NCBI GenBank assembly: GCA_902792085.1
Contig: CADAYE010000001.1
Coordinates: 62,001-126,000 of the forward strand
Source of the DNA: an uncultured bacterium
GTDB taxonomy: Bacteria; Cyanobacteriota; Vampirovibrionia; Gastranaerophilales; Gastranaerophilaceae
Direction of reading: 5' to 3'
DNA: 64,000 nucleotides
Shown: piece by piece, positions 17,682 to 59,829 of the stretch
Layout of the letters: each line of letters opens with the position of its first letter
How positions within the stretch are numbered: position 1 is the first letter of the stretch
The notes under the pieces: generated by a model
Database searches by the model: none
The model's input: only the letters and a program-made list of their open reading frames with translations
Told to the model about the DNA's origin: nothing
Made by a program: the position numbers and the translations under genes

Positions 17682-18908
17682 ATGAAAACTTATTTTGATG
17701 CGGTTAGACTTTTGACTTCTCCAAAGACCTTTAAAATTTCTTTGGGGTTAGAGCGTATGGAAAAAATAATGGAACTTTTGGGAAATCCGCAGGATAAGTT
17801 AAATTGTATTCATGTTGCGGGAACAAACGGTAAAGGCTCTGTTTGTGCTATTGTCAGTTCAATTCTGAATGAAACGGGGATAAAAGTCGGGGTTTATTCA
17901 AGTCCGCATATTTTTAAATATACGGAAAGAATAAAAATTAATGATAAAAATATATCAGATTCTAATTTTGCTCAATATGTTTTTGAAATATCAGAACTTG
18001 CAAATAAAAATAATATCAACTTGACAGAATTTGAAATTTTAACATCTGTTATGTTTAAGTATTTTGCTGATAACGAAGTTGAAATAGTTGTGCTTGAAAC
18101 AGGTCTTGGCGGTCGGTTTGATGCAACAAATATAATCAAAAAGAATTTGTGTTCAGTAATTACTCACATTGATTATGACCATACAGAGCGTCTTGGCAAG
18201 ACTTTAGATGAAATTGCATTTGAAAAAGCAGGAATTATCAAACAAAATTGTCCATGTATAGTTTTGGAAGGCAGAGAAGCGTTTTATGATAAGGCGATGG
18301 AAGTTGGTGCAGAATTGGAGATTGTTTCGCCCCTCCCCCTGACCCCCTCCCCAAAGGGGCGAGGGGATATATTGGCACTCAAAGGAGTTTATCAGCAGGA
18401 AAATTTGTCGCTTGCTCTTGCGGTTATTGAAAGGTGTTTTCCGCAAATTGAACAGGATACAATTCAAAAAGGCTTGCAAAATGTCAAGCATCCTTGCAGG
18501 TTTGAGTATATAAAGGATAAAAATTTAATCATTGATGGAGCGCATAACCCCAATGGAATTTCGGGTTTGATGGAAAGTCTTGATATGTATTATCCGAATA
18601 CAAAGCGCAGATTTATTTTCGGATGCTTGAGAAATAAAGAGTATGAGAAGATGGTGAAGATTTTAACCCTCACTCCTGCCTCATCTTTCGAAGGTAGAGT
18701 AGAACAAGAGGTTTATTTTTATCATTTCAGTCATCAAAATTCTGCCACTTTTGAAGAATTAAAAGCGGTCTGTCCTGTCGGGTGCAAAGAATTGACCAAA
18801 GATACGCAGTTAGATTTTAATGACGGGTATCTGAATATTATTTGCGGTTCGTTTTATATGATAGCAGAACTTTGTGAACTGTTTAAAATTAGTCCAGATA
18901 GTCTTTAA
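17682..18908 (+). CDS. folC: Bifunctional folylpolyglutamate synthase / dihydrofolate synthase family
   Basis: 408 residues, a Mur-ligase-family enzyme that adds glutamate to folates. P-loop VAGTNGKGSVCAI is at about residues 45-57; YSSPHIFKYTERI, GLGGRFDATN, and DGAHNP follow in order. Two stretches look like inserted repeat-derived peptides: about residues 216-228 (PLPLTPSPKGRG, strongly) and 328-343 (LTLTPASSFEGRVEQE, weaker). No ribosome site is seen and a TATAAT box lies 6 nt upstream, so the mRNA is probably leaderless. Confidence 0.94.
   Translation: MKTYFDAVRLLTSPKTFKISLGLERMEKIMELLGNPQDKLNCIHVAGTNGKGSVCAIVSSILNETGIKVGVYSSPHIFKYTERIKINDKNISDSNFAQYVFEISELANKNNINLTEFEILTSVMFKYFADNEVEIVVLETGLGGRFDATNIIKKNLCSVITHIDYDHTERLGKTLDEIAFEKAGIIKQNCPCIVLEGREAFYDKAMEVGAELEIVSPLPLTPSPKGRGDILALKGVYQQENLSLALAVIERCFPQIEQDTIQKGLQNVKHPCRFEYIKDKNLIIDGAHNPNGISGLMESLDMYYPNTKRRFIFGCLRNKEYEKMVKILTLTPASSFEGRVEQEVYFYHFSHQNSATFEELKAVCPVGCKELTKDTQLDFNDGYLNIICGSFYMIAELCELFKISPDSL
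18328..18366 (+). repeat. In-frame GC-rich palindromic element in folC
   Basis: C-rich left part and CCCCAAAGGGGCGAGGGG form a near-palindrome and encode PLPLTPSPKGRG. GC content far exceeds that of the gene. A related inserted peptide (PLSQKEQGHE) occurs in cca at 21070-21110. A further possible, more decayed copy lies at 18666-18711. Confidence 0.7.
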
Positions 18909-41152: not shown

Positions 41153-43225
41153 TTACTTTAATCCAAGTTTTTCGAAAAGGATAGCATTTCTTTTCTTGCT
41201 ATCAGACAACAATTTATCTAAAGAAATAATTTCAATATATGCATTATAAGTTCCATGAATTTTATAATATCCTCCAGGATCAACGGTTTTATTAAAATCG
41301 TGTGTTTTTAATAATTTTTCTAAACTTGGTGTAATATCACAAATAATGTATATATAAAATCTAGTATTATCTTCTACATTAACAGGGCGACCTTTCTCTG
41401 TAAGAAGTTTCTTATCTTTTATTTTATTTATATAGGAATATGTCTGCTCTATAGGATTTTCTTCGCTTGTATAATCATCTCTAAGGGGTCTTTTAAATTC
41501 AATTAAAGTAATTGAATCAAAAGTTACTTTTTTAGAATCATTTGAAAATATGTATTTATTATCAAAAAATATGTCAGGTCTTTTGTTGTCAGGTATTGAG
41601 AGGTCTTTATTTGAACTTAATGGAATATCAGATGCTATAAAATCTTGAAAAGATAGTCTATCATCTATTATCCATAAATTGTGATTTTCATAAGAGACTT
41701 CGTCAGATGAAAACCCTTTGGGGTAGATTAAATCATGTATAGCATCCTCTTTGTAATATGATTTATCCTCTTTCCAACTTAAATATGTTTCAAATAAATC
41801 TATGATTATTTTCCTGTGTAATATATATTCAGATAAATCGGCGTTATTAATTGCTAATAATTCTTCTTGAAATTTTTTTAATCTTTCCTTGTATTCTGGG
41901 GTTTCTTTTATTCCATGCTTCTTTTTTTCTATTAATATAGCATGATATTTATTATCTAATATTTCTTTCTTTTGAAAGTGTTTTAATCTTATTTTGTCAA
42001 CTAAATTATTTTCTTTAATAGAAGGGGATATATCATCAAAAAAATCATCACTTTCTTGTAGTATATAATTATATTGTGGGAGTTTATTTTTAACCACTTT
42101 TTCAATATATTTCCTTTTTTCTGTTTTTACTATTTCAAGATATGGTTCTATATATTTTTTTATGCTTTTAACTATTTTGTTTTTTATCTCATCAAAGGTT
42201 AATATATTTCTAGGAGGATTATCTAAGTGTTTAATAATATCAAAACTATCTCTTACATAATCAACTTTCTCATCAAAGTAGTTCCCAGATAAATAGACAT
42301 TATAATAGAACCTTTCACCAGTTGACTTATCAATAATTTTATTTTCCAGGTTAGCTAATTGAGTAATACTTTTTAATGTCTCACTAAATACTGCTCTAGA
42401 ATTAGCACAATAAAAAATCCTATGATTTGAAGCTTCACTTGAATCAAACATTTTTACATGTTTTAAAGAAAATGTTTTATTTTTTATTTTTATATTTTCT
42501 TCTTCAACATTTCCATGGAATATCTTCAGGAACATATCGTTTAAATTAAGTTGTATGATTTTTTCTGTCCTAGGATCATCATATCCACTGATTGTTATTT
42601 CGGGAATAGTGGATTTCCCTACAAAATATTCAAAACAATGCTCTATAATTCTTTGTGCAATAGTTTCAATTTTTTGGTTACTTTCGTTAAGATATTCATT
42701 TTTTAGTCCTATAAGTTTTATAGTTGTACTATTAGATTTTGATTTAGATTTTTTATTGATGTAACTTTCAGCTTCTATTCCACTAGGTAATTTATAAGTA
42801 AATTTTCGATTATAAAACTGACGATTTTTCTTATATGAACTATCAACTTTGACTTCTCGAAATGCTTTTAACCATAAAACACGACCGATACCTTTGCAAC
42901 CATATTTTTTCTTGTGCGTTGTAAAAACACGTTTAAAATGTTTAAAGTTTTCATCATTAAAGCCAATACCATTATCAGTAATATAGATGTTTTTTATAGG
43001 TTCTATTTTGCCCTTAAATTCATCACTTAATTTTTGTTGAACTTCGTTATTTCGTTCTATATAAATATCGATTTTACCATTTTTGATTCTATTTATTTGT
43101 ATGGATTGTATAGAATTGATGACCGCTTCATATAACGGCATTAAATAATTATTACATTTTATTTGCTGTACTAATCCTTGAAACTCTATTGAATTATCTA
43201 AGCTTAAATCTTCATCACTAATCAT
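41153..43225 (-). CDS. GHKL ATPase with nuclease-like C-terminus, candidate defence protein
   Basis: 690 residues. GHKL motifs are ordered as in Hsp90/MutL: N box LYEAVINSIQS (about 31-41), G1 DNGIGF (about 88-93), G2 GCKGIGR (about 111-117). A long charged helical middle follows. Near residues 560-600, RPDIFFDN and then TLIEFKRPLRD have the spacing of a PD-(D/E)xK nuclease core. Large single-gene proteins of this kind are common in phage-defence islands, but no exact known system is recognised. TATAAT ends 6 nt before the ATG, so it is probably leaderless. Confidence 0.72.
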   Translation of the reverse strand: MISDEDLSLDNSIEFQGLVQQIKCNNYLMPLYEAVINSIQSIQINRIKNGKIDIYIERNNEVQQKLSDEFKGKIEPIKNIYITDNGIGFNDENFKHFKRVFTTHKKKYGCKGIGRVLWLKAFREVKVDSSYKKNRQFYNRKFTYKLPSGIEAESYINKKSKSKSNSTTIKLIGLKNEYLNESNQKIETIAQRIIEHCFEYFVGKSTIPEITISGYDDPRTEKIIQLNLNDMFLKIFHGNVEEENIKIKNKTFSLKHVKMFDSSEASNHRIFYCANSRAVFSETLKSITQLANLENKIIDKSTGERFYYNVYLSGNYFDEKVDYVRDSFDIIKHLDNPPRNILTFDEIKNKIVKSIKKYIEPYLEIVKTEKRKYIEKVVKNKLPQYNYILQESDDFFDDISPSIKENNLVDKIRLKHFQKKEILDNKYHAILIEKKKHGIKETPEYKERLKKFQEELLAINNADLSEYILHRKIIIDLFETYLSWKEDKSYYKEDAIHDLIYPKGFSSDEVSYENHNLWIIDDRLSFQDFIASDIPLSSNKDLSIPDNKRPDIFFDNKYIFSNDSKKVTFDSITLIEFKRPLRDDYTSEENPIEQTYSYINKIKDKKLLTEKGRPVNVEDNTRFYIYIICDITPSLEKLLKTHDFNKTVDPGGYYKIHGTYNAYIEIISLDKLLSDSKKRNAILFEKLGLK

Positions 43226-43301
43226 ACTGATATTATAGCAAATATTTATCTTGCGAATTTTTTATATTAAGAATTGTGTATTGTACAAGTTCTCACTTGA
43301 A

Positions 43302-43327
43302 ATATTGCACCATTTTTGGTACAATAT
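43302..43327. promoter_or_regulatory. Operator-like palindrome upstream of antitoxin gene
   Basis: ATATTGCACC-ATTTTT-GGTACAATAT, one mismatch in ten, 38 nt before the HTH gene start and overlapping a likely -10 (TACAAT). Autoregulation by the encoded HTH protein is inferred. Confidence 0.45.
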
Positions 43328-43364
43328 AAATAGAGATTATTTTAAATTAAAAAGGATAATAAAA

Positions 43365-43649
43365 ATGATAGATAAAAAGCACATAGGTTCCAATTTTGAC
43401 AGTTTTCTTGAAGAAGAAAATATTCTTCAGGAGTCAGAGGCTGTTGCAATAAAAAGAGTTATTGCTTACGCATTGGAGCAAAAAATGCTTGCAGATAATA
43501 TTTCTGTTAATCGTCTTGCAAAAGAACTTGCAACATCTAGAACTGCTATTTGTCGCATTTTAGATCCTGAAAATACTTCTATTACTTTGAATACAATTGA
43601 AAAAGTTGCAAAATATTTGGGCAAACGCATTGTTTTATCGTTTGCATAA
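43365..43649 (+). CDS. HTH antitoxin-like protein (HigA/XRE type)
   Basis: 94 residues from the ATG at 43365, supported by AAAGGA upstream; a longer open frame has no ribosome site. The C-terminal half is a helix-turn-helix (SVNRLAKELATSRTAICRIL), ending KYLGKRIVLSFA as in antitoxins of RelE/HigB toxins. The opposite-strand gene overlapping its last 15 nt encodes such a toxin. The two face each other, unlike the usual head-to-tail operon. Confidence 0.85.
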   Translation: MIDKKHIGSNFDSFLEEENILQESEAVAIKRVIAYALEQKMLADNISVNRLAKELATSRTAICRILDPENTSITLNTIEKVAKYLGKRIVLSFA

Positions 43650-43988
43650 TTCTTTATAGCGTTTAATTGCAACATCCAGTTCTTTTTGCGGGGTTTTCTG
43701 AGTTTTCTTTATAAATGCGTGAAGCAAAACTATTGTATTATCTTCAACGCAGAAAATTATTCTTGCGATGCCATTGGAAATTTTGCAGCGAACTTCTTCT
43801 AAGTTTGTGCCTTTTAAAACTCTTGTTAGAGGCATTCCGACAGGATAACCGTATTGAACGGTTTTAATATCATATCCAATAGTTTTCTTATCTTCTTTAG
43901 GAAGTTCTTTTAACCATTCACGCACAGGTTCGTTTCCGGAATCTGTTGCGTAAAAAAATACTTCCAATGCTTCACAACGACTATTCAT
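43635..43988 (-). CDS. RelE/HigB-family toxin (Gp49-like)
   Basis: 117 residues. FFYATDSGNEPVREWLKELP at the start, then GMPLTRVLKGTNLEEVRCKI and LLHAFIKKTQKTPQKEL: the phage-derived Gp49/HigB pattern of mRNA interferases. TATAAT ends 6 nt before the ATG, so it is likely leaderless. It converges on, and overlaps by 15 nt, the antitoxin-like gene, so each mRNA would carry antisense to the other's end. Confidence 0.88.
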   Translation of the reverse strand: MNSRCEALEVFFYATDSGNEPVREWLKELPKEDKKTIGYDIKTVQYGYPVGMPLTRVLKGTNLEEVRCKISNGIARIIFCVEDNTIVLLHAFIKKTQKTPQKELDVAIKRYKELCKR

Positions 43989-44122
43989 GCCCTAATTATA
44001 GCACAAACACACGATTAAAGGAAATATTATTAAGAAAATACATGTAACTTATTGTGTCTTTTTTATTGATATGACTGTGCTTTTAGGTAATGTATGTCTT
44101 GCATTTAATAAATGGAGGTCGT

Positions 44123-44344
44123 ATGGAAAAAGTCGGATTGAATATTACTCCTAAAGAGTTTAAGCAATTGAGTAAATGGGCGGAGAATATTTATAACACA
44201 GCTGTTGTTATCGATTATTTCGTTGCAAATCAACCAGAGATTGAAGAATGTTACAACCTTGCGCCGGTAATCAAGCACCTGCGAAATGATGCGGATGTTT
44301 TGAATGCATTCTTTATAGATCACGAAAAAGATGTCGAAATTTAA
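44123..44344 (+). CDS. Hypothetical small protein
   Basis: 73 residues from the ATG at 44123, with GGAGG at 44114-44118. Acidic, soluble and helical. Family not recognised. Its stop codon overlaps the first unit of an 11-bp-spaced TTTAAA array. Confidence 0.68.
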   Translation: MEKVGLNITPKEFKQLSKWAENIYNTAVVIDYFVANQPEIEECYNLAPVIKHLRNDADVLNAFFIDHEKDVEI

Positions 44345-44389
44345 ATGCCGTTTAAAAGGTGTTTAAAAGCCGTTTAAATAGCGTTCAAA
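44340..44389 (+). repeat. Array 1: five TTYAAA hexamers at exact 11-bp spacing
   Basis: TTTAAA at 44340, 44351, 44362 and 44373, and TTCAAA at 44384, each 11 nt from the last. Intervening bases vary (GCCG, AGGTG, AGCCG, TAGCG). It lies between two small cargo genes. A second such array is at 51839-51888. Confidence 0.85.
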
Positions 44390-44483
44390 AATTATTATGT
44401 CTAAATGATACGATTTTAGACGCATACACTTGATGTTTCTCGCCCAAAGAGTGATGAATTGTGTAGCTTGAAAGGAGCATACT

Positions 44484-44696
44484 ATGATTGAAATCGGTAA
44501 AAAGTACAGATTAAAAAAGCTTAAAGGTTGGTTTGAAAAAGATAGCGAAGAATTTACTGTTGTTTGTTTTGGCGAATACAATATTGTCGGCTGTGTCGCA
44601 CCGGATGGTGAAAGATATGTATTTGATAAAGATTTTTTAATTGATCCTGATAAGCCGAATGAAATATACGCTGATATTACAATAACGAAAGGATAA
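44484..44696 (+). CDS. Hypothetical small protein
   Basis: 70 residues, likely beta-rich (KYRLKKLKGWFEKDSEEFTV). GAAAGGAG precedes the ATG. Three nt separate it from the next gene, suggesting a small-protein operon to 45117. Family not recognised. Confidence 0.65.
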   Translation: MIEIGKKYRLKKLKGWFEKDSEEFTVVCFGEYNIVGCVAPDGERYVFDKDFLIDPDKPNEIYADITITKG

Positions 44697-44699
44697 ATT

Positions 44700-44900
44700 A
44701 TGGTCGAAAAAGATTATAAGCTATATGGGACAAAGATTTTAAACTTAAAAACACAAGAAATCGGCTTGCTAATTTGTCTATGGGAAAACAAATATGCCGA
44801 TAAAAAAGTAGATTTTGCAACTTGTGTAGATAAAACAGGCAAACGATACAACATAGAATTAGATTATATCAGAGGGTTTGAGGATGATTTTGAAAAATAA
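44700..44900 (+). CDS. Hypothetical small protein
   Basis: 66 residues, similar in size and style to its neighbour upstream (KIL then CVDKTGKRYNIELDYI against CVAPDGERYVFDKDFLID), so the two may be diverged duplicates. It overlaps the next frame by 17 nt. Confidence 0.6.
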   Translation: MVEKDYKLYGTKILNLKTQEIGLLICLWENKYADKKVDFATCVDKTGKRYNIELDYIRGFEDDFEK

Positions 44901-45117
44901 ATTAACTAAAGAAATATTGGATATTCCATATTCTGAATTTAGAAAAAAGTTTGCCAAAGAAATTCAAGAGGCATTTGAAAGTTACCGCAAAACACAGTTA
45001 AATAAATATTCTTGGAACTTCAAAGACGACAACTCTTTGGAGTTTAATTTTTATTTTGAACTTCAATGGAATTTCAATCATTTTGTAAATTCTAATTGGT
45101 ATATTGAAAGAATGTAG
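44884..45117 (+). CDS. Hypothetical small protein
   Basis: 77 residues from the ATG at 44884; an in-frame TTG six nt earlier is the alternative. Rich in aromatic residues in its second half (FNFYFELQWNFNHFVNSNWY). It is convergent with the HTH gene whose stop is adjacent. Family not recognised. Confidence 0.6.
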   Translation: MILKNKLTKEILDIPYSEFRKKFAKEIQEAFESYRKTQLNKYSWNFKDDNSLEFNFYFELQWNFNHFVNSNWYIERM

Positions 45118-48203: not shown

Positions 48204-48620
48204 TTATTCCATTCCCAAAATTTCTCGTTCTATTTGTCTAACAATATCAGGAGATAAGCAACTAGTTGGCTTTTGTTTAAAAAATTGTTTCTGCTGCGGA
48301 AAATCAGTACATTGTTTCACTAGCGGAATTCTTTTTAGAATATTCATCAATGAATACATTTCTGCTTGCGGGGTTTGTTGGTTATTATCAATGTCATTTG
48401 AAATTTTATCCATTATTTTTTTTGCAAAATTCATTAGTTCCCGATTGAATAATTCCTGCTCTCTGCCTTTTTCAAACCTCTTTTTATCCCATTCGTATTC
48501 CTTTTTCCAATAGAATAAAGTCCTGCGCGAAAGGTCAAGTTTTGTACCAATTGTATCAAGCGATTGTTTTTCGTAAACATATAAATGCTCTGCCTGTTTT
48601 AATTTATCTAATTTTGTCAT
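48204..48620 (-). CDS. HTH protein resembling Mu-type phage terminase small subunit region
   Basis: 138 residues. The N-terminal 50 residues form a helix-turn-helix (SLDTIGTKLDLSRRTLFYWK then EYEWDKKR) of the type found in Mu-like phage DUF1804 or terminase small-subunit proteins; the rest is helical. No other packaging gene is present, so it is likely a relic or a domesticated regulator. AGAAGGAG precedes the ATG. Confidence 0.65.
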   Translation of the reverse strand: MTKLDKLKQAEHLYVYEKQSLDTIGTKLDLSRRTLFYWKKEYEWDKKRFEKGREQELFNRELMNFAKKIMDKISNDIDNNQQTPQAEMYSLMNILKRIPLVKQCTDFPQQKQFFKQKPTSCLSPDIVRQIEREILGME

Positions 48621-48682
48621 ATTAACTCCTTCTTTATAAATTAAATAGTCCGACCTATGTAAAAGTCGGACTATTCATATAA

Positions 48683-49603
48683 CTAAATACTAGGTCTGCT
48701 GCGGTAATAACCTTTTACTTCTGTACCATCAGAACGGGTATATGAATTTACATAGATCAAATTCCCTGCATGTACTTGTTGTTTTGCTTGAGCCTCAGGC
48801 ATAACTTTGCCTGCTGCGACTTGTTGATTTATAAAGCTTTCTAATCTTGAATATTCGTCCTGAGACATTTGTCCAATCTCTTCGTTTGTAAAGATTCTGT
48901 TTGTATCAATATCTTTAAAATCAATATTCATATTGACTTGTCCCTCCAAGCGATTTGGTTTGTATTCAACCGCATCTTCTAAATCTCCCATCCACTCTGC
49001 TTTATGGTGAAAATATGGGTCTAAACCTCCAATATATCCTTCAGTTCCTTTTGTTACAGAATCTTCGTCATAATTCTTTTTAATTACATAAGTACCGCCA
49101 AGTTGATTATCAATATTATTGTTAAATACCGTATCGTTTATATTTCCGTAATTTCTTATGTTCTCTAAATTATCTCTCACATTTCCTTGCAAAATATCTC
49201 TCACACCATAAGCATTAAATGTAACTGTTTCGTGTCCGGTCTTATTTGACATTAATTGTGCAAGACTGCCGCCTAATGAGTGTCCTGTAAAAACAATTTC
49301 TTGATTAGTGAAATCTTTTTTAACTTTTTCATAAAATTTTTGAGCATCAGCATATTGATTTGGCAATTTTTTCTTTGCCATATCTACATCGTTTGCTAAA
49401 TCATCTTTGTCGTTTGTTCCACGCATTGCAATTACGACTTTTCCATCTTTGTAAAAAGCTTCACCATGAAATCCGCTCTTTTTGTCATATTCTGAAACTT
49501 TAATCCAACCTTTTGGGATTGATTTTTCATTCCCTTTGTAAACACCTATTGATAAGGATTTCATTTCGTTGTCAAATTGTTTTTGAGTTGTTGTGCTATT
49601 CAT
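48683..49603 (-). CDS. Class 3 lipase-like alpha/beta hydrolase
   Basis: 306 residues. Nucleophile elbow FTGHSLGGSLAQ (Ser109) with AMRGTNDKDDL upstream as the oxyanion-lid region, as in fungal-type class 3 lipases. The last 25 residues, with YVNSYTRSDGTEVKGYYRS, match a fragment at 63011-63091 beyond the lysozyme-like gene, pointing to a shared tail module. No signal peptide is seen. It could be a secreted effector; context does not decide. AAGGAG precedes the ATG. Confidence 0.82.
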   Translation of the reverse strand: MNSTTTQKQFDNEMKSLSIGVYKGNEKSIPKGWIKVSEYDKKSGFHGEAFYKDGKVVIAMRGTNDKDDLANDVDMAKKKLPNQYADAQKFYEKVKKDFTNQEIVFTGHSLGGSLAQLMSNKTGHETVTFNAYGVRDILQGNVRDNLENIRNYGNINDTVFNNNIDNQLGGTYVIKKNYDEDSVTKGTEGYIGGLDPYFHHKAEWMGDLEDAVEYKPNRLEGQVNMNIDFKDIDTNRIFTNEEIGQMSQDEYSRLESFINQQVAAGKVMPEAQAKQQVHAGNLIYVNSYTRSDGTEVKGYYRSRPSI

Positions 49604-49636
49604 TGTTTTTTCTCCTTTTTTTTGTATACTATAACT

Positions 49637-50005
49637 ATGTTTTTAAATCATTTACGACAATCTTATGCTTTTAATATTTTGTGTGTTTTCGGGATATTAG
49701 AATTAATATTGTTTATAGTTTTGTTAATAATAGGCTTACTAACAAAATCTTCACTATTTGGATTGATTTTACTGTTTCACATAATAGGATTGCTGAGTAT
49801 CCTATTATTTTTGCTTAGTACTTTGATATACTTTGTTGAATTAATTTTTTCTATTAAAATAAGCAACCAAAAATATCTCTGCAATAAAAAAATTACAGCA
49901 CTGCAAAATATTGGCATAACAGCATTTATGCTAATTGTCATATTAGATTTGCTAATTTTCGGTTCAAAATATATTGAACCTATTTTGTATAATTTGAAAA
50001 ATTAA
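49637..50005 (+). CDS. Small membrane protein
   Basis: 122 residues from the ATG at 49637, which avoids overlap with the divergent lipase gene. Three hydrophobic segments (about 13-35, 40-68, 90-108). No ribosome site; ATACTATAAC just upstream may be a -10 box giving a leaderless mRNA. It could be an immunity or anchor protein for the lipase, but this is only proximity. Family not recognised. Confidence 0.6.
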   Translation: MFLNHLRQSYAFNILCVFGILELILFIVLLIIGLLTKSSLFGLILLFHIIGLLSILLFLLSTLIYFVELIFSIKISNQKYLCNKKITALQNIGITAFMLIVILDLLIFGSKYIEPILYNLKN

Positions 50006-50056
50006 TTGTTTTTTGCTATTTATATTTACCTCCTTTGTAGCTTAAATTGTAGTCGA

Positions 50057-50443
50057 CTAGTGTAATTTGCTATTTATAATATCTAAATATTCGACCTCAA
50101 CATCAATGAATTTTTGTTGAAGCTTTTCAGTTTCTTCAATTGCGTAGGATGCTATATCAACTATTTCTTTTAATCTTTTTATCTTTTCTCCAAAATGAAT
50201 TTCTATTGAATCTTTACCTTGTTTTGTTATCCATTCACAGGTTACTTTTTTTAATTCTGAATCTAAAATTTCAGGCAAAATAGAATTCAACATAATTGCT
50301 CTAACATAATCAGGTAAAGGTAATCTTAATGATTTTGCTTTCTTTTCTAAAGGCTTTTTTAAGTCATTTGGAATTCGCATACTGAATTGTTCGGTATTTG
50401 AATTCATATTATTTTTTATAAAGTTAACTATCTTTTTATACAT
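50057..50443 (-). CDS. Ribbon-helix-helix-like regulator
   Basis: 128 residues. EQFSMRIPNDLKKPLEKKAK and then LPDYVRAIMLNSIL (about residues 18-52) fit an Arc/CopG-type ribbon-helix-helix DNA-binding domain; the rest is coiled-coil. AGGAG supports the start at 50443. It is the gene immediately downstream of the transposition operon, on the same strand, and may regulate it. Confidence 0.65.
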   Translation of the reverse strand: MYKKIVNFIKNNMNSNTEQFSMRIPNDLKKPLEKKAKSLRLPLPDYVRAIMLNSILPEILDSELKKVTCEWITKQGKDSIEIHFGEKIKRLKEIVDIASYAIEETEKLQQKFIDVEVEYLDIINSKLH

Positions 50444-50515
50444 ATAAATCTCCTATTTGCATATATAATAGCAAATTATTAAAAACCTGTCAACATAAAA
50501 TTAAAAAACATGTTT

Positions 50516-51067
50516 TTATACAAAAGTTATTCTGTTAATGCTAAATTTGTTTTTGTCCGTTAATCTTTTTACTTGGAAAGTGCACTTTCTTTCTATAATA
50601 CCGAGATTTTGAAAATATTTTATTAATTGATTTAACAATGCTAGTGTATTTTTAGTCCTACGATACTGTAAACCTCTGTTTTGGCAAATATTGTAAACTT
50701 CTTTTATATCATTGTTGTTGATATTATTGAGAAATTTCCCTTTTAAATACGGTAAAATATTATACTTAAAAATAGAATTATAACTTTTACAGGTTTCGTA
50801 TTTGCAATACACATTTGCATAATTTTTCATAAAATATGCAATGGCATCTTCAACTTTTATGGGTGTAATTTTATTTTTCGGTATAACAAATAAATCAAAA
50901 ATTTGTTCTTGCTCTGCCTCTTTATATTTATACAAGTCTTGTTCAAAGACCAATTTACCCTCGTTCAAAAGTCGTTCAAGTTCTGTTTTACAATTACATT
51001 CCGCAATCATTTCAATTTCATCTAGCGTAAATTCTTTCAGGTGCTTTGCTAATTTTTCTATGTTCAT
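50516..51067 (-). CDS. Recombinase core-binding-like protein lacking a catalytic domain
   Basis: 183 residues. The N-terminal 50 residues resemble a winged helix. Residues about 75-160 (VEDAIAYFMKNYANVYCKYE, YNILPYLKGKFL, NNNDIKEVYNICQNRGLQYR, LLNQLIKYFQNLGI) match the SAM-like core-binding domain of tyrosine recombinases. The Arg/His-x-x-Arg/Tyr catalytic half is absent and the gene ends cleanly. It overlaps the ATPase gene by 4 nt (ATGA), so it belongs to the transposition operon as a third component. Confidence 0.68.
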   Translation of the reverse strand: MNIEKLAKHLKEFTLDEIEMIAECNCKTELERLLNEGKLVFEQDLYKYKEAEQEQIFDLFVIPKNKITPIKVEDAIAYFMKNYANVYCKYETCKSYNSIFKYNILPYLKGKFLNNINNNDIKEVYNICQNRGLQYRRTKNTLALLNQLIKYFQNLGIIERKCTFQVKRLTDKNKFSINRITFV

Positions 51068-51744
51068 ATTATTTGCTCCATAATTTCTCTTGTAATTTCA
51101 TCTAAATTATTATCTTTTGCAAATATTTCCATTTTGTTTATCAATTGAACTATTTGTCTTAATCTGTTGTATTTTGAATAGATATATTCAATTGAATAAG
51201 GAGTAAATGGGATTTCTGATAGTTGGTTAATAATTTGTCCTATATCATTCACTCCAAAGGTTTCAAATTTTAAAATTTCTGAAAACCTGTCATAAAGGTG
51301 CTTGTATCTTTCAAGTTTCCTGTGTGCCAAGCCCATTCCAATAAAAATTATTGGACAGCCGGTTTCATCGTGGATATCCCGCAAAGTTTCAATGGTTTTG
51401 TAATTATTCATCAGGTAATCAATCTCATCAATAAAAATAACCTGTGGCTTTTGTTTTAGTTTTTTAACCACAATATTAAAATTATCCGAAGTCAAGAATC
51501 TCGGTATTTCATCAAGTTCCTTTACCATCTCCTCAAGCAGCCATCTGCCGGTCATTAGATTTGATGCTCTTAAATAAATTCCGTCATATTTGCACGCAAG
51601 CCATAATGCAGTTTGCGATTTTCCAAGTCCGGGCTCTCCATAAACCAATGCCATTTTAGGAATATTTTTGGGTTTATTAATTAAATTCTCAATAAGTCCA
51701 ATGAAGTTTTTAACGTTAGTAGTTTTTACGAATATTTTATTCAT
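51064..51744 (-). CDS. MuB/TniB-like AAA+ ATPase, transposition protein B
   Basis: 226 residues. Walker A GEPGLGKSQ (about 36-44), Walker B VIFIDEIDY (about 99-107) and a sensor-like FIGMG. In Mu and Tn7-type elements such ATPases choose target DNA and stimulate the transposase. It overlaps the transposase gene by 8 nt upstream and the third gene by 4 nt downstream: a tightly coupled A-B-C operon. Confidence 0.9.
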   Translation of the reverse strand: MNKIFVKTTNVKNFIGLIENLINKPKNIPKMALVYGEPGLGKSQTALWLACKYDGIYLRASNLMTGRWLLEEMVKELDEIPRFLTSDNFNIVVKKLKQKPQVIFIDEIDYLMNNYKTIETLRDIHDETGCPIIFIGMGLAHRKLERYKHLYDRFSEILKFETFGVNDIGQIINQLSEIPFTPYSIEYIYSKYNRLRQIVQLINKMEIFAKDNNLDEITREIMEQII

Positions 51745-53431
51745 ATAATAACCTATACTCCTTTGTATTTTTAAATTCCGTTATCCAAGAATTATATGGA
51801 TCATTCGCAACTAAATACTCATATTTTTCTGAATTATTTTTGAACAGCGTTTGAACCCTTTTTGAATCCGATTTGAATACGGTTTGAATTTCTGTAGGTT
51901 CTACCTGTGTTTCAAGTAACTTTATATCTTCAGTTTCCAGATACTTTTTCACGGATTCAACAGTTTTCTTTTTTAATTGTTTTTGTCTGACAATTTTCTG
52001 CTTGTAATCCTCATAATCTTTGACATCCCCTAGTAATTTTGCCATAGGGTGTGTTTCTGTTACACGTTCTGCGGTGCATAAATATTCACCTTTGAGTGTG
52101 TAAACTTTGATACTTGTCAGGTCAAAAAGGTTGTACTTAATTAAAACTTTGCTCTTAAAGCCGTATAACCTTTCATCAAAATAATCACAATTTAAAAACC
52201 TGATGCCATTCCGCTGAATTGTTTTAATCTCGGTTGCAAGCATCAAATCGTCAAGAGTATTAATATCAATATTTTGTCTTTTTCGTTTTTCTAAAACTTC
52301 AGCCACTGTTTTATCCGGAGCATTCGGACAAGGCTGAGAATTCTTAAAACCAAGCCACATATCAATCATTTTTATTGTTTCTTCTATGGTCGGAATGTAA
52401 TCGGCGTGCCAAGATTTATGCAATTTTTCATTCCGCATCATATAAGCAGGTTTATTCTGAATATTGCTTCCGATATAACTTGGGAGTAACTTTTCAAAGC
52501 CTTCCTGAAATTCTTTGAAAAACCTTTCTATCACTTTGGCTCTGGCATTATACGGGCGAGCAAAAACTGTTTCAATTCCGAGTTTTGAATATAATCCCTG
52601 AAAACCGAGTTCTGTAAAACCTTTATCGTCAGTAAAATATTTTGCTCTGAATGCTCTGCCGTTATCCTGATATACAATTTTTGGAACCATATCAAGATTT
52701 ATAATTGCATTTCTAAGAGCCGAAGCTATACACTGTGTATTTTCTTCAAGCATAATTTCATAACCGACTAAAGCTGTTGATTTCCAATCCAAAAATCCCA
52801 CTAATGTTGCTCTGCAGGGTTTTCCTGTAAACGGATTGATTACCTGAAACGCAAGTTTATGTCCGTCTGCGACAAGAATATCCCCTACTTCTAGCAAACT
52901 TGCATCACGTTTTATGTAGGGTTCAACTTTGTCAGAAAGTGCTTTTTCTCCGTCACGAGAAAGAATCCATTTGTCATAATTATTATCTTTAAACCATTTT
53001 GCATATCTCCTAAAAGTGATATCAGCAGGAATAAAACTTTGTCCCTGCTCTTTTAATCTGTATTTCGTTAATGCAATGGCTTTGCCAATAGACAGTCTAT
53101 TCGGGTGTAAAAGCAAACCCATAAATATTTTTATTTCTTCATCATTCAGAACTGTTCGGTATTCCCGAACAGTTGAATATTTATATTGCGGTAAAAGTTT
53201 TGCGTAATCTTCCGTTCCGTTTAACATCGCATACCAACGGTGCAAACTACCACGGGAAATTTTGCTTAAAATCTCAAATAAATGTGAACTTGAAGTATTA
53301 TGCAATTTTACAAAATCATAATCAGCTTGAAGTTTATTTTTAGATTTCTCCCTGAATTCAAGCCATTTGTGAACAATATCTAATCTTGCGAGTGCGATTT
53401 GTTTACATTTTTCTGGAGTAAATTCTGCCAT
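51737..53431 (-). CDS. Mu-type DDE transposase (rve core)
   Basis: 564 residues from the ATG at 53431, chosen because AAAGGAG lies 7 nt upstream; two earlier Met codons overlap that site. N-terminal DNA-binding region (1 to about 170), then an rve core with Asp189 (LVADGHKLAF), Asp256 (YQDNGRAF) and Glu302 (NARAKVIERFF), then a Mu-type C-terminal barrel (RLYGFKSKVLIKYN). The tail (about 495-560) is encoded by an 11-bp-spaced repeat array. It should cut and join the element ends. Confidence 0.93.
   Translation of the reverse strand: MAEFTPEKCKQIALARLDIVHKWLEFREKSKNKLQADYDFVKLHNTSSSHLFEILSKISRGSLHRWYAMLNGTEDYAKLLPQYKYSTVREYRTVLNDEEIKIFMGLLLHPNRLSIGKAIALTKYRLKEQGQSFIPADITFRRYAKWFKDNNYDKWILSRDGEKALSDKVEPYIKRDASLLEVGDILVADGHKLAFQVINPFTGKPCRATLVGFLDWKSTALVGYEIMLEENTQCIASALRNAIINLDMVPKIVYQDNGRAFRAKYFTDDKGFTELGFQGLYSKLGIETVFARPYNARAKVIERFFKEFQEGFEKLLPSYIGSNIQNKPAYMMRNEKLHKSWHADYIPTIEETIKMIDMWLGFKNSQPCPNAPDKTVAEVLEKRKRQNIDINTLDDLMLATEIKTIQRNGIRFLNCDYFDERLYGFKSKVLIKYNLFDLTSIKVYTLKGEYLCTAERVTETHPMAKLLGDVKDYEDYKQKIVRQKQLKKKTVESVKKYLETEDIKLLETQVEPTEIQTVFKSDSKRVQTLFKNNSEKYEYLVANDPYNSWITEFKNTKEYRLLYE
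51839..51888 (+). repeat. Array 2: five TTTGAA hexamers at exact 11-bp spacing in transposase gene
   Basis: TTTGAA starts at 51839, 51850, 51861, 51872 and 51883. A sixth, TCTGAA at 51828, is one base off in the same register. The array codes for the transposase tail (IQTVFKSDSKRVQTLFKNN) yet its 11-nt period is not a codon multiple, so DNA-level constraint is likely. Confidence 0.85.
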
Positions 53432-53487
53432 GCGTATGCTCCTTTGCATACACATTAATCACTCTGTTTCGCAGAAACATCAAGTCC

Positions 53488-53667: not shown

Positions 53668-53808
53668 AGAATACTCCGGCAAATCTCTACACTATAAACC
53701 TGCCTTAAACTCCCAATAACTCGGCATCATAGCCAATAAGAACGCATCTAAACTGTCCTGAAAACATATAGTGGTTCAAACCCAATCCCCCTTACAAAAT
53801 TTAAATCA

Positions 53809-53850: not shown

Positions 53851-53866
<16 letters not shown>
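53809..53866. other. attR: 58-bp direct repeat at intact tRNA-Tyr
   Basis: Same 58 bp as 40879-40936. It covers the acceptor 3' strand and part of the T arm of tRNA-Tyr plus its terminator. Confidence 0.88.
53811..53838 (-). terminator. Rho-independent terminator of tRNA-Tyr
   Basis: On the minus strand CGACTTC-TTAAT-GAAGTCG is followed by T residues. It lies within the duplicated att core, so a copy also occurs at 40881-40908. Confidence 0.88.
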
Positions 53867-53934
<68 letters not shown>

Positions 53935-53970
53935 TATATTTAATTGTCACTCTCGTTAGGTCTTTAAAAA

Positions 53971-54042
<72 letters not shown>

Positions 54043-54064
54043 TTATTTAGTTTTCCTTGATGCC

Positions 54065-54150
54065 TTCCGGCAGAAGGGAGTGCTTCCTCTCGGGAAATGT
54101 GACATTTAGTCACCTTTTCCTCGGCAGAGTCCCTGAACCACAAGGGCCTG
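54065..54150 (-). pseudogene. tRNA-Thr 5'-half remnant joined to a hairpin element
   Basis: On the minus strand GCCCTTGTGGTTCAGGG copies the acceptor and D-arm start of the neighbouring tRNA-Thr (GGT), then diverges into a long hairpin centred on GGTGAC-TAAAT-GTCAC. No anticodon or T arm can be folded. A broken tRNA gene is the simplest reading. Confidence 0.5.
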
Positions 54151-54203
54151 TGTTCAGAGTATCTTTTGAAAGAAACCTTAATATTGTATCCTTTCAAAAG
54201 ATT

Positions 54204-54276
54204 AGCCGGCAATGGGACTCGAACCTACAACCTACGGTTTACAAAACCGTTGCTCTGCCAATTGAGCTATGCCGGC
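54204..54276 (-). tRNA. tRNA-Thr (TGT)
   Basis: 73 nt. Acceptor GCCGGCA/TGCCGGC, discriminator T, anticodon stem ACGGT/ACCGT with loop TTTGTAA giving TGT, T arm AGGTTCGAGTCCC. Flanked on its 3' side by an inverted repeat ATCTTTTGAAAG/CTTTCAAAAGAT (54155-54202). Confidence 0.94.
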
Positions 54277-55326: not shown

Positions 55327-58300
55327 ATGAAAAAGATATTTTTCGCTTTGGTTTTAAGTACATTATTATCTGTTCCTGCATTTTCATATACAAGATATGA
55401 AGTGCCGGAAGATTCTGCGCATTATGCTTTTGATATTTATGATGCAGGGGAATCTTTTGATTATGATAATAAAGCGGTTACTTCTACATATAATCTTACA
55501 AACAATCAAATGAGGGCTCTTTTTGATGCGGCAAAAAAATGGACAGAATATATCAATTTTACTCCGAATAATTTACCGATTTACAGAATTTATTCTTCAA
55601 ACGAACTTAATGCGTCTGCATCAAGCGGCTATTATGAAGTCACAAATTCAGATTATATGTACACATTAATAAATTCAATGATGACTAATAAGCAGGTAAT
55701 TCCTGATGAAGATGAACCTTTACCGGAATTTCACGGGCTGATTGAAGTCGGTCTTGGCTTAATTGAATCAGAACCTAAATGGAACAATTATGATGGTGCT
55801 TCGGCTATTTTTAAAGAGCACTTGCCTGATATATATTCAACTATGATTCATGAAATGTACCATTCAATTGGTCTTGCAAGCGGTGCATCTCAATACAAGG
55901 TAAAACAAGATGATTTTGGTTATTATTTTTCCAAAAATGTAAATTCTCCTATTTCAATTTGGGACAGTTATTTGAGGATATATAAGGGAAATATTTCTTC
56001 CGCATCATATTATAATCCTGCGCTTGAAATTGCCTCTGCTCGGGGTATGTCTCTAAAAATTGATAATATGGATGAGGGTGGAATTTTTGATATTTTGAAT
56101 TATGCTCCGTATTTTGCGGGAAAAGAAACTTTAAAAGTTCTTACGGGATTAAATAATGCTTCTGTTGAAGATATGGAAGCGTATATAATGTATAAAGGCG
56201 GATTGAAAAATTATTCTAATTATTATGATGCTTTGGCAAAGCGTCCTTTGGTTTTGGGGCTGCCTGTCAATGTAATAGAAGATTCCAGACCGGAATTATC
56301 CCATATTGAACTTAAAAACAGTTTTATGTCACACCAGAATTATCAGAACTGGGCAATACTTATGGAAGCCGAATTGGCGGTATTAAAAGACCTTGGCTAT
56401 GATGTTGATATGAGAAAATATTTTGGTCAATCTTATTATCTTGATAATATGTCAGAGGTTTTTACAAGAGGTTATGGTGATGTTTGGGATGAAACATCAG
56501 GCATGTATTCAGGCAGAAGTACGACAGAAAATGGTATAGGTCTGCATATTTACGGTGATAATAACAATATTACTCAGGTTTCGGATATATTATCTGATGG
56601 TAAATATACAATCGGAGCAAGAATTGATGGTGTAAATAACTCATATATTCTTAATACCGGAAATAAAATTGATACTGCAGGTGCAGGGAGTATCGGTATT
56701 GCAACTATGTGGGGTAAGAATCATACAATTACATTAAATTCGGGTTCAGAAGTAACCGCAAAGGGTGATGGCGGTGTGGCTGCCGAATTTGATTTCGGTA
56801 AAAATGTAATGGGTGAATTATATTCCGGTAGAGGTTCATATTCTGAATTTGACGGAAAGAAGAACCCCATTGCCGAAGATGTATTACAGGGACCTTTGGT
56901 TGAAAATTTCAATGTATCAGGTAAACTTGAAGGTCAAAAGGCATCAATTTATATTTCCGAAAATGCGCATGTAAAAAATATCAATATAGAAAACGGTTCA
57001 AGCGTAAAAGGTGATATTATTTCCGAATGGAATTCAGTTCAGTCTGGAGCAGGTATGTATGTTCAGGATAGCGAAGGTCAACCTGTGACAGGTGAGGATG
57101 TAAGTAAAATTTATTTTACAAATTTGAATTTTGGAAATGGAACTGATGCTTACGAGGGTAGTTTTTCTGATAACATCACAGGGGAAAATGACACATTTAA
57201 TACCTTAAAAATGAATGTGAACGGAACTCTGAATTTTGGAAATTCAACCGAATCAAAAACTATTGATGTGTATAATATCACGAATAACGGAGTATTGAAT
57301 ATTACCGGTAACACATCAATAAAAACTCAAAATGCTGAAGAAAGTATTACAGGAAGTGGTGCAATCAATGTTTCTGACGGTAAAATATTAGAAACTTTCA
57401 ATGTATCAAATATTAATAACGAATTGCGTCTTAATGCGGGTGAACTTGATACAAGTAATCAGACAAAAGAAAATATAAAAATCAATAAGTTAGTTACATC
57501 AGATGGTTCAAAATTTGATGTTGATTTGGGAGATACATTTAATATAACAGATACTTCAGGAAGTACCGGAACGACTGAAATTTCAAGAGTTTATGCCGAT
57601 AAGGGTGAAGTTTCCCAACTCAAAGCAAAAGGAACGGATTATGAAAAACCTCTGTTTACAAATGCTTCGGTTGATTTAGGAACTTCATCAACAAATGTTT
57701 ATTATGACGGGGAAAAATATACTCTGTCACAAGACAGTTCAAAACAAAATCTTGTAGTGAGTTCTGTTTCAGCATCAAACGGTGTTGGTGATGCCGCACA
57801 GGATGCAAAAACATCTAATTATATTGTTGCGGAAGGTGAAATTCAAAATGCAGATGGCGGAACAGTTACGGGAAAAACTTTTGAAGTCAGTGGTGACAGT
57901 CTGAATTTTAATGGTCATAAAGGTTTGATTATTGACGGAACTACAAATCCGCAAGGTACGACAATAAAAACTACAACTTTAAATGCTTCAGAAGGCGGTG
58001 AAAATAAAGGAACCTATACTGTTCAAAATGGTGGTATGTTAAATATTGTATCAGGTTCTGATAATCCTCATGTTTCAATTGTAAGCAGTAATAACGCTGT
58101 ATATTTAGACAATGGTTCAAATGTTATTTTGAAGTCTGATAAAGGTTCTGAAGTTGTTGTTGCTGGTAAAATTACTGGCGAAAGTATTGAAAATTCAAAA
58201 GTTGTTGCTTATGGAGATAATGTTATTCTCAATAATACTGAGAATGTAGCATTATATAGTGAAGCAAATAATCTTGAATTAAACGGACAACTTTCAAATA

Positions 58301-59829
58301 CAACTATCAATGCAGCAGGTGGTGAAATTAATGTTAATAAGGATTCTGCATTGGCGGGCGGAACAAATTCTCTTATCTTAAACGGAGCAAATATAAATCT
58401 GCAAAATAATGAAGTCACTCCGATTGATTTGTCAAAATTATATCTTAATGAGGACACCAATTTGGCAATTGATGTGGATATAAAAAACGGTAAGGCAGAT
58501 ACTTTTGTTTTTGAAAATGAAGATGATGCAATTACTAATTACGGAACAATTAATATTGACAATGTAAATCTTGTTAATACCAATGAGCGTACGATTTTAA
58601 CACAAGATAATTATGAAGTACCAATTATCAGTCCTGAATTTAAAAATATGGAATTAAAAAGGTCGGTAGTTTTTGGATTGAAACCTCAGTCTTTAACAAC
58701 TCCGATTTATAAATACAATACGAATTTCGGCGTTATGGAAGACGGAACTGTCGTATTTGGACTTGCAAGATCAGGAAGCGGTTATGACAGTTACAACCCC
58801 GCGGTTACGGTAAGTCCTGTTGCTGCACAGTTGGGCGGATATTTAAGTCAGTTAAATTCTTATGACGAAGCATTCAGAAATTTGGATATGAAAATGCTTA
58901 TGACTCGTGAAGAACGACAGGCTTACAAGATGGCAAATCGTTATGCTTCGGAAGTTCAGCCACAAGTATTCAGTCCGACTTATTTGCCTGAAAAAGACAG
59001 TGCAGGATGGTTCAGACCTTATGCAAGTTTTGAAAAAGTAAATCTTAAAGGCGGTCCTAATGCCGAAAATGTAATGTATGGTTCATACTTTGGCGGTGAT
59101 TCTAAAATGTATGAAACTAAAAACGGCTGGGATTATCAATATTCTGTTTATATCGGGTATAATGGTTCACACCAGAACTATCAGGGTAATTCAATATACC
59201 AAAACGGCGGTAATTTAGGTGCAACGGGAATATGGTATAAAGGCGATTTCTTTACTGCGTTAACTGCAAATGTCGGAGCAAGTGTAGCAGATGCATCTAC
59301 AATGTATGGCAGTGAAGATTTCCCTATGTTAATGACAGGTGTTGCAAGTAAGACAGGATATAATTGGGAACTTGCAAAGGGTAAATTCATAATTCAGCCA
59401 AGTTGGTTAATGAGTTATACCTTTGTAAATACTTTTGATTATACAAATTCTGCGGGAGTAAGAATTAAATCTGATCCGTTACATGCAATAAATATGGCAC
59501 CGGGCTTGAAATTTATCGGGAATTTAAAACATGGTTGGCAGCCTTATGTGGGAGTTCAGATGGTCTGGAACATAATGGATGATACACATTTCAAGGCACA
59601 AAATGTTTCATTACCGAATATGAGTGTAAAACCGTACATTCAATATGGTGTCGGATTACAAAAACGCTGGGGCGAAAGGTTTACTGGCTTTGCTCAGGCT
59701 ATGCTTCGCAACGGCGGAAGAAATGGTATTGCTTTATCTGCCGGCTTTAGATGGGCAATAGGTAAAGACCCGTCTGCTAAGAAGACGGAAAATAAAACTT
59801 TATCAAGTGCAAAACCAATAATAAAATAA
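55327..59829 (+). CDS. Autotransporter with N-terminal HExxH protease-like domain
   Basis: 1500 residues. Signal peptide 1-20. Residues about 20-380 form a globular domain with a zinc-protease motif HEMYHSIGLASG (about 174-185). A long Asn/Gly/Thr-rich region (about 400-1130) has the regular short strands of a beta-helix passenger. The last 280 residues from GWFRPYASFEKV to SAGFRWAIG form an autotransporter beta-barrel, followed by an unusual 25-residue Lys-rich end. It should display a possible protease on the cell surface and proves an outer membrane. AGGGGATAGAG precedes the ATG. Confidence 0.9.
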   Translation: MKKIFFALVLSTLLSVPAFSYTRYEVPEDSAHYAFDIYDAGESFDYDNKAVTSTYNLTNNQMRALFDAAKKWTEYINFTPNNLPIYRIYSSNELNASASSGYYEVTNSDYMYTLINSMMTNKQVIPDEDEPLPEFHGLIEVGLGLIESEPKWNNYDGASAIFKEHLPDIYSTMIHEMYHSIGLASGASQYKVKQDDFGYYFSKNVNSPISIWDSYLRIYKGNISSASYYNPALEIASARGMSLKIDNMDEGGIFDILNYAPYFAGKETLKVLTGLNNASVEDMEAYIMYKGGLKNYSNYYDALAKRPLVLGLPVNVIEDSRPELSHIELKNSFMSHQNYQNWAILMEAELAVLKDLGYDVDMRKYFGQSYYLDNMSEVFTRGYGDVWDETSGMYSGRSTTENGIGLHIYGDNNNITQVSDILSDGKYTIGARIDGVNNSYILNTGNKIDTAGAGSIGIATMWGKNHTITLNSGSEVTAKGDGGVAAEFDFGKNVMGELYSGRGSYSEFDGKKNPIAEDVLQGPLVENFNVSGKLEGQKASIYISENAHVKNINIENGSSVKGDIISEWNSVQSGAGMYVQDSEGQPVTGEDVSKIYFTNLNFGNGTDAYEGSFSDNITGENDTFNTLKMNVNGTLNFGNSTESKTIDVYNITNNGVLNITGNTSIKTQNAEESITGSGAINVSDGKILETFNVSNINNELRLNAGELDTSNQTKENIKINKLVTSDGSKFDVDLGDTFNITDTSGSTGTTEISRVYADKGEVSQLKAKGTDYEKPLFTNASVDLGTSSTNVYYDGEKYTLSQDSSKQNLVVSSVSASNGVGDAAQDAKTSNYIVAEGEIQNADGGTVTGKTFEVSGDSLNFNGHKGLIIDGTTNPQGTTIKTTTLNASEGGENKGTYTVQNGGMLNIVSGSDNPHVSIVSSNNAVYLDNGSNVILKSDKGSEVVVAGKITGESIENSKVVAYGDNVILNNTENVALYSEANNLELNGQLSNTTINAAGGEINVNKDSALAGGTNSLILNGANINLQNNEVTPIDLSKLYLNEDTNLAIDVDIKNGKADTFVFENEDDAITNYGTINIDNVNLVNTNERTILTQDNYEVPIISPEFKNMELKRSVVFGLKPQSLTTPIYKYNTNFGVMEDGTVVFGLARSGSGYDSYNPAVTVSPVAAQLGGYLSQLNSYDEAFRNLDMKMLMTREERQAYKMANRYASEVQPQVFSPTYLPEKDSAGWFRPYASFEKVNLKGGPNAENVMYGSYFGGDSKMYETKNGWDYQYSVYIGYNGSHQNYQGNSIYQNGGNLGATGIWYKGDFFTALTANVGASVADASTMYGSEDFPMLMTGVASKTGYNWELAKGKFIIQPSWLMSYTFVNTFDYTNSAGVRIKSDPLHAINMAPGLKFIGNLKHGWQPYVGVQMVWNIMDDTHFKAQNVSLPNMSVKPYIQYGVGLQKRWGERFTGFAQAMLRNGGRNGIALSAGFRWAIGKDPSAKKTENKTLSSAKPIIK

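Follow-up and report, generated by a model that had tools for sequence, protein, structure and literature searches.

A five-turn TTYAAA array inside a Mu-type transposase gene as a candidate DNA gyrase wrapping arm

The transposase gene of a Mu-type transposon carries near its 3′ end five copies of the hexamer TTCAAA, the starts of which lie exactly 11 bp apart (array A). Array A and its relatives in other elements fall into one sequence class with sites that Mu-like phages have at the position of the strong gyrase site (SGS) and at the A-B junction, and the constraint on array A acts on DNA and not on the peptide. Judged from the sequence, array A is best read as a site of the SGS class that is unusually regular and lies within the transposase gene, and the array probably is an SGS-class element providing one wrapping arm for DNA gyrase.

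The array and its place in the transposase gene

In the window, i.e., the whole 64-kb stretch of DNA analyzed here, TTTGAA starts on the + strand at positions 51839, 51850, 51861, 51872, and 51883 (n = 5; spacing exactly 11 nt). The regular run described in the earlier note is thus confirmed by the coordinates and by a scan of all hexamers at periods of 7 to 30, in which array A was the only five-copy run in the window and a related array at 44340 (array B) was the runner-up. No run of at least 4 copies was present in any of 40 Markov-shuffled windows and a reversed-pattern control was nearly empty, ruling out a chance origin, and low-complexity tandem duplication was rejected based on the spacers, which differ from each other within one array. 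The total number of TTTGAA hexamers in the window (176) is ordinary, the phasing alone being unusual. The proposed sixth hexamer, at 51828, is in exact register but reads TCTGAA (one mismatch); it is not conserved, and the array family consists of five units, with this hexamer outside the conserved set. An RNA element was also ruled out: array A folds no better than its shuffles (z = −0.36), array B only weakly better (z = −1.47; 18 of 200 shuffles equally good), and an Rfam search returned matches to tRNAs alone. The features considered below are as follows:

51839..51888, − strand: array A, TTCAAA ×5 on the gene strand, 11 bp start to start, in the 3′ end of the transposase coding sequence
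51828..51833, + strand: TCTGAA, the proposed sixth unit, in the 11-nt register, one mismatch, not kept among homologues
44340..44389, + strand: array B, TTTAAA ×4 plus TTCAAA, 11-bp spacing, matrix score 63.2
50942..50997, + strand: possible weak third array, in the third gene, matrix score 16.7 (highest of 60 shuffled windows, 12.8)
51737..53455, − strand: Mu-type transposase (rve + Mu-transpos_C)
51064..51744, − strand: AAA+ ATPase (AAA_22/TniB-like), in the MuB/TnsC position
50516..51067, − strand: third protein, 183 aa, integrase N-terminal SAM-like domain without the catalytic domain
48204..48620, − strand: DUF1804/small-terminase-like HTH protein, the conserved next gene of the element
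44123..45117, + strand: small-ORF module around array B (ORFs of 84, 70, 66, and 77 aa), colinear with transposase genes in many relatives
53751..53770, − strand: transposase-side terminus, 5′-TATANGTTTTCAGGACAGTT; the common sequence stops at TATA in about 50 copies

Array A falls within the last ~50 codons of the transposase coding sequence, 102 to 151 bp ahead of its final base, and is separated by a gap of 94 nt from the start codon of the ATPase gene. The DDE transposase with a Mu C-terminal domain and the AAA+ ATPase identify the element as a Mu-type transposon. Phage Mu and Tn7-type elements likewise have an rve + Mu-transpos_C transposase followed by an AAA+ ATPase, with an array at the A-B junction, but the present element differs from them in its integrase-derived, SAM-like third gene and its 5′-TATA terminus, and no phage structural genes were seen in it.

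The constraint on the codons acts at the DNA level

Alignment of homologues on the conserved C-terminal motif yielded 56 distinct sequences with the array in phase. At every codon position, mean column entropy was 0.3 to 0.5 bit in the hexamers versus 1.2 to 1.4 in the spacers. At codon −8, the residue varies among nine amino acids (D, C, R, S, H, N, G, A, and V), while the third base is T in all 56 sequences (p = 2.5e-4 with one draw per amino acid, to which further codons add). Codon −7 is exclusively TCA (Ser) or TTA (Leu), such that the residue switches and TTYAAA is kept, and codon −4 is NTT in 55 of the 56 homologues. Because the hexamers hold while the residues vary, peptide repetition is rejected as the cause. 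This is what the earlier note had anticipated in arguing that protein repetition cannot explain an 11-bp phase, and the alignment that it proposed gave the opposite of the outcome it regarded as fatal, namely, a conserved peptide with unconserved hexamers. In some relatives, insertions detach the last unit or units, and the remaining units stay in the 11-bp register.

The signal appears to be embedded in the variable linker of the transposase just ahead of the A-B junction, where the codons would tolerate it, and array A represents a clear case of a structural DNA signal in a protein gene constraining its codons. In 5 loci (L063, L066, L072, L078, and L087), the same array-bearing linker contains an insertion that is translated as CHSEFISES...LKQVQ and is similar to a dispersed palindromic element.

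Arrays beyond the transposase gene

The array unit can be written as (G)TTYAAANNNN. The host genome itself contains 9 places matching at least 3 units, versus 0 for the reversed pattern. At least 4 strict units were present in 58 of 146 genomes of the bacterial family, the control pattern being matched in one genome, and five strict units in 30 of 107 family genomes versus 2 of the 137 other genomes of the phylum; of these two, one has low-complexity repeats and its own control match. Array contexts include the small-ORF module, gene ends at which the stop codon is part of the first unit, and islands with a 179-aa tyrosine recombinase, HipBA, and type I restriction genes. Array B combines two of these, since the 84-aa ORF terminates at a stop codon in the first unit of this array; array B ends 95 nt ahead of the next small ORF, and the module of small ORFs at 44090-45117 (84, 70, 66, and 77 aa) has no Pfam or NCBIfam match. 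Relatives of the transposase with 62% identity have the array upstream of the gene instead of inside it, genomes G024 and G017 carry arrays with no detectable homologue of this transposase, and identical arrays occur in elements in which no homologue of that transposase was detected and in unrelated phages. Given the arrays in islands devoid of a Mu-type transposase, transposition alone cannot explain them. Several contigs are short metagenome assemblies, and some short contexts were not resolvable; IMG/VR arrays with identical spacers were set apart as simple duplications.

Several of these contexts deserve separate mention. The small-ORF module also recurs without the transposon and in some cases ends with a second array in inverted orientation (L186, 8851-9560). 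In 6 islands (L180, L181, L182, L185, L187, and L188), a catalytic-only tyrosine recombinase of 179 aa is found with an array and a nearby HipBA, some of these islands adding type I restriction genes. In L208 (2500-10100) and L206 (8600-11300), repeated blocks of ~200 bp with a tRNA 3′-end fragment alternate with single genes and end at an apparently intact tRNA, a layout suggestive of very small cassettes having integrated in tandem at a tRNA gene. Finally, a phage family (L209, L210, L218-L221, L228, and others) displays the same phasing (TTTAAACGCGGTTTAAACGATGTTCAAA...) inside the gene for a ~136-aa protein, a second case of a coding-embedded array.

Resemblance to known gyrase sites

Most of what is known about strong gyrase sites comes from Mu, pSC101, and pBR322; the gyrase motif has been described as too long and degenerate for standard motif searches, and the Mu SGS works best when central in the element. 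In the host genome studied here, the only protein found with the six-blade C-terminal repeat domain is of the GyrA type; it lacks the canonical GyrA box (QRRGGKG) and contains the variant QNRATRGKSG. The gyrase motif of E. coli consists of ~36 bp in the center, bordered on each side by 47 bp with a GC% period of 10.75 bp, the periodicity being read as the AT minor groove facing the protein (PMC6379681), and ~48 bp wrap the GyrA pinwheel (PMC12393610). In phage Mu, the right arm of the SGS is essential and holds bend-inducing repeat motifs, and loss of the SGS delays transpososome assembly (PMC10052514).

The arrays have the form of such an arm. Their AT hexamers are narrow and bendable, recur once per helical turn and alternate with GC-rich spacers over 50 bp (GC content of 0.06 in the hexamers and 0.55 in the spacers of the array set; 33% GC in the window), corresponding to the ~47 to 50 bp with GC alternating in helical phase of a wrapping arm (here, 50 bp with an 11-bp period). 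AT hexamers with GC-rich spacers are the pattern of a gyrase wrapping arm and of the Mu-type SGS, a host factor absent from the earlier note. Like the arrays, the 47-bp arm of the E. coli Topo-Seq motif is periodic in GC% with AT facing the protein, but it is degenerate and has a period of 10.75 bp (PMC6379681), whereas the arrays have near-fixed TTYAAA letters at 11.0 bp. The likeness to the Mu SGS extends to TTTAAA-type AT blocks in helical phase, GC-rich spacers, a length of ~50 bp, and residence in a Mu-type transposable element: in the Mu record, gyrase cuts at 17879-17880, and TTTAAA blocks with helical spacing and GC-rich spacers lie directly to the right. However, the Mu arm is less regular (TTTAAA at +0 and +21, TTTAAC at +33), intergenic, and central, whereas array A has five exact units at 11.0 bp, lies in coding DNA, and is near one end of its element. 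The spacing in phage SGS is also nearer to 10 to 10.5 bp than to the exact 11 of array A. No cleavage core was found next to the arrays, there being no flank motif common to all array contexts.

Recovery of phage sites by the array matrix

A matrix trained on 41 non-transposase arrays only was used to scan for five units with a spacing of 10 to 12. In the Mu genome, its four best matches fall at the left end, the A-B junction (3287-3342, score 14.3; A ends at 3319 and B starts at 3358), the region after T, and the right arm of the SGS (17910), with scores of 6.1 to 15.3 versus −6.5 for the best of 20 shuffled genomes. The SGS arm (score 6.1) is the fourth-best match in Mu, above all shuffles. 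The top match in Mannheimia phage 3927AP2 lies between G and I, i.e., at the SGS position, and that in a Helicobacter prophage between the two genes that occupy the positions of B and A. In pSC101, where the par locus was left out of the assessment, the best match is in the rep gene and exceeds the shuffles, and nothing was found in B3, a high-GC Mu-like phage (63% GC).

The F gene of Mu served as the anchor for 95 IMG/VR loci of ~13 kb, which collapse to 38 lineages. In 28 of these lineages, versus 3.85 expected (binomial p ~ 2e-20), the highest-scoring match of the locus was at most 1.3 kb past F, in the G-I region. Together with recovery of the Mu SGS, this places the arrays in the same sequence class as known SGS arms, and their nearly letter-perfect units constitute a searchable version of the gyrase-type site, the matrix recovering the SGS position in most sampled Mu-like lineages. 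Around MuA (86 loci, collapsed to 18 lineages), the segment of ±130 bp at the MuA stop codon was the single best in 30 of the 86 loci, and the A-B junction was within the top 5% of windows in 9 of 18 lineages (p ~ 6e-8). The location of array A is the same as that of these phage junction sites. Both enrichments peak at helical spacing, about 9 to 12 bp: matches at the SGS position numbered 23 to 27 of 34 for spacing sets centered on 9 to 11 versus 8 to 15 of 34 otherwise, and those at the A-B junction 2 to 4 of 18 for sets centered on 9 to 13 versus 0 to 1 of 18 otherwise. Since off-helical spacings still match in 8 to 15 of 34, simple abundance of TTTAAA accounts for part of the SGS signal, and the helical component is what exceeds it. 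The literature searched, mostly openly readable papers, contained no report of such arrays or of an A-B junction site. A recurrent second-best array-like match was also seen in 6 Mu-like phage loci (L406, L408, L410, L415, L428, and L442), ~1.6 kb before the end of F and 300 to 400 bp upstream of its start.

A gyrase-based model and its alternatives

In the model that we favor, the C-terminal pinwheel of the host GyrA would wrap the phased 50-bp arm, gyrase would load preferentially beside the transposition genes and supercoil the element as a topological domain, and the supercoiling, by analogy with Mu, could help the ends of the element to meet for transpososome assembly. Other elements of the bacterial family may exploit this host enzyme as well, each by means of its own arrays. 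More tentatively, TTYAAA arrays might be a general topological handle of mobile elements, with the MuA-MuB junction of Mu-like phages harboring a second gyrase-type site, so far undescribed, in addition to the central SGS, and with Gastranaerophilales-type transposons, toxin-antitoxin and restriction islands, and other elements recruiting host gyrase via near-identical five-turn arrays, in one family within the transposase coding sequence. If gyrase binds the arrays, the commandeering of host supercoiling by transposable elements becomes directly testable, as does the reason for the presence of one and the same site in unrelated elements of a single bacterial family.

Several features count against gyrase: the SGS arm ranks only fourth in Mu, part of the SGS-position signal is independent of helical spacing, the spacing of array A is exactly 11 bp, array A lies near one end of its element, islands without a Mu-type transposase also carry arrays, and high-GC Mu-like phages such as B3 give no match. 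In addition, indirect readout by this enzyme would not strictly call for TTYAAA letters as sharp as these. Such strictness would suit an operator, that is, tandem sites for a response regulator of the OmpR/PhoB type or for another tandem-binding transcription factor controlling mobile-element genes. Sites of the OmpR/PhoB family are direct repeats of a hexamer and N5, a format with its 5-bp spacer that the arrays share, and in several cases a start codon follows the end of the array after 70 to 145 bp (94 for the ATPase and 95 for the small ORF; the other examples are a tyrosine recombinase and hipB). We nevertheless consider an operator unlikely. The array has five units, a consistent location upstream of a promoter was not observed, and some arrays, with no start of a gene in the vicinity, directly follow stop codons or separate convergent genes (L137, L186, and L138); furthermore, no such regulator was found in the element, and a single regulator would hardly account for the same signal in unrelated phages at both the SGS and the A-B position. 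Binding by the element's own proteins, as the earlier note had suggested, would make the array an enhancer, loading, or immunity site for the transposase, the MuB/TnsC-like ATPase filament, or the SAM-like third protein. Conservation of the array in the transposase gene, the disposition of its units on one face of the helix, and the recurrence of the A-B junction location in Mu-like phages are in line with this proposal, which is distinctly improbable given the absence of arrays from the transposon right ends and their upstream placement in the 62%-identity relatives. As a general explanation it is not supported, since genomes and islands without a detectable transposase homologue (G024 and G017), and unrelated phages, carry arrays; with the array present in elements lacking the three proteins, these are unlikely to be the general binders.

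The same structural logic, AT/GC alternation in helical phase, could also serve another wrapping protein, HU/IHF-like or a lineage-specific nucleoid protein, acting on intrinsically bendable DNA. The enrichment at the SGS position points specifically to gyrase, however, and the arm length fits the wrap of the gyrase pinwheel, so that a different wrapping protein has a low probability. Least expected is a recombination or attachment site for module exchange, which we regard as very improbable. It would account for the occurrence of the same downstream module behind different upstream modules, the junction falling within the array, for the overlap of arrays with stop codons, and for the position of some arrays beside the 179-aa tyrosine recombinase or near tRNA-type att repeats; on the other hand, both flanks are colinear across dozens of copies in the transposase family, there is no core site common to all contexts, and the result at the phage SGS position is left unexplained.

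Termini, cargo, and surroundings of the transposon

The closest relatives are mostly named Candidatus Gastranaerophilales/Melainabacteria or uncultured bacteria, many of them from rumen or gut, and the 1.92-Mb host genome contains two further near-full-length copies with 91% to 93% identity. About 50 copies have in common one sharp terminus, 5′-TATAGGTTTTCAGGACAGTT, beyond which the DNA is unrelated; within the window, the last position of the common sequence is 53770. None of these ~50 right ends contains an array, excluding the array as a transposon-end binding site. Array A is ~1.9 kb from this right end. The left end was not found in a search for the inverted terminus, which yielded no inverted partner of the right terminus; one candidate, C7:20776, was discarded because it lies in a gene. 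Comparison with contig C29 as an empty site showed that the region itself is a hypervariable tRNA-linked island.

Near the right end in L028, L044, and L097, two transposon termini are located from a few bases to ~40 bp apart, reflecting insertion at or beside the end of another copy. Longer relatives of the third protein (L138, 4811-5350, and L179) look like degenerate tyrosine recombinases, which suggests repurposing. The lipase-like and ribbon-helix-helix-like genes at 48646-50513 of the window are cargo missing from most relatives, and a GHKL-type ATPase (690 aa) beside a Gp49/HTH toxin-antitoxin pair (41153-43988) is possible defense cargo. Just past a tRNA cluster (53851-54276), the window also encodes a 1500-aa autotransporter-like protein (55327-59829).
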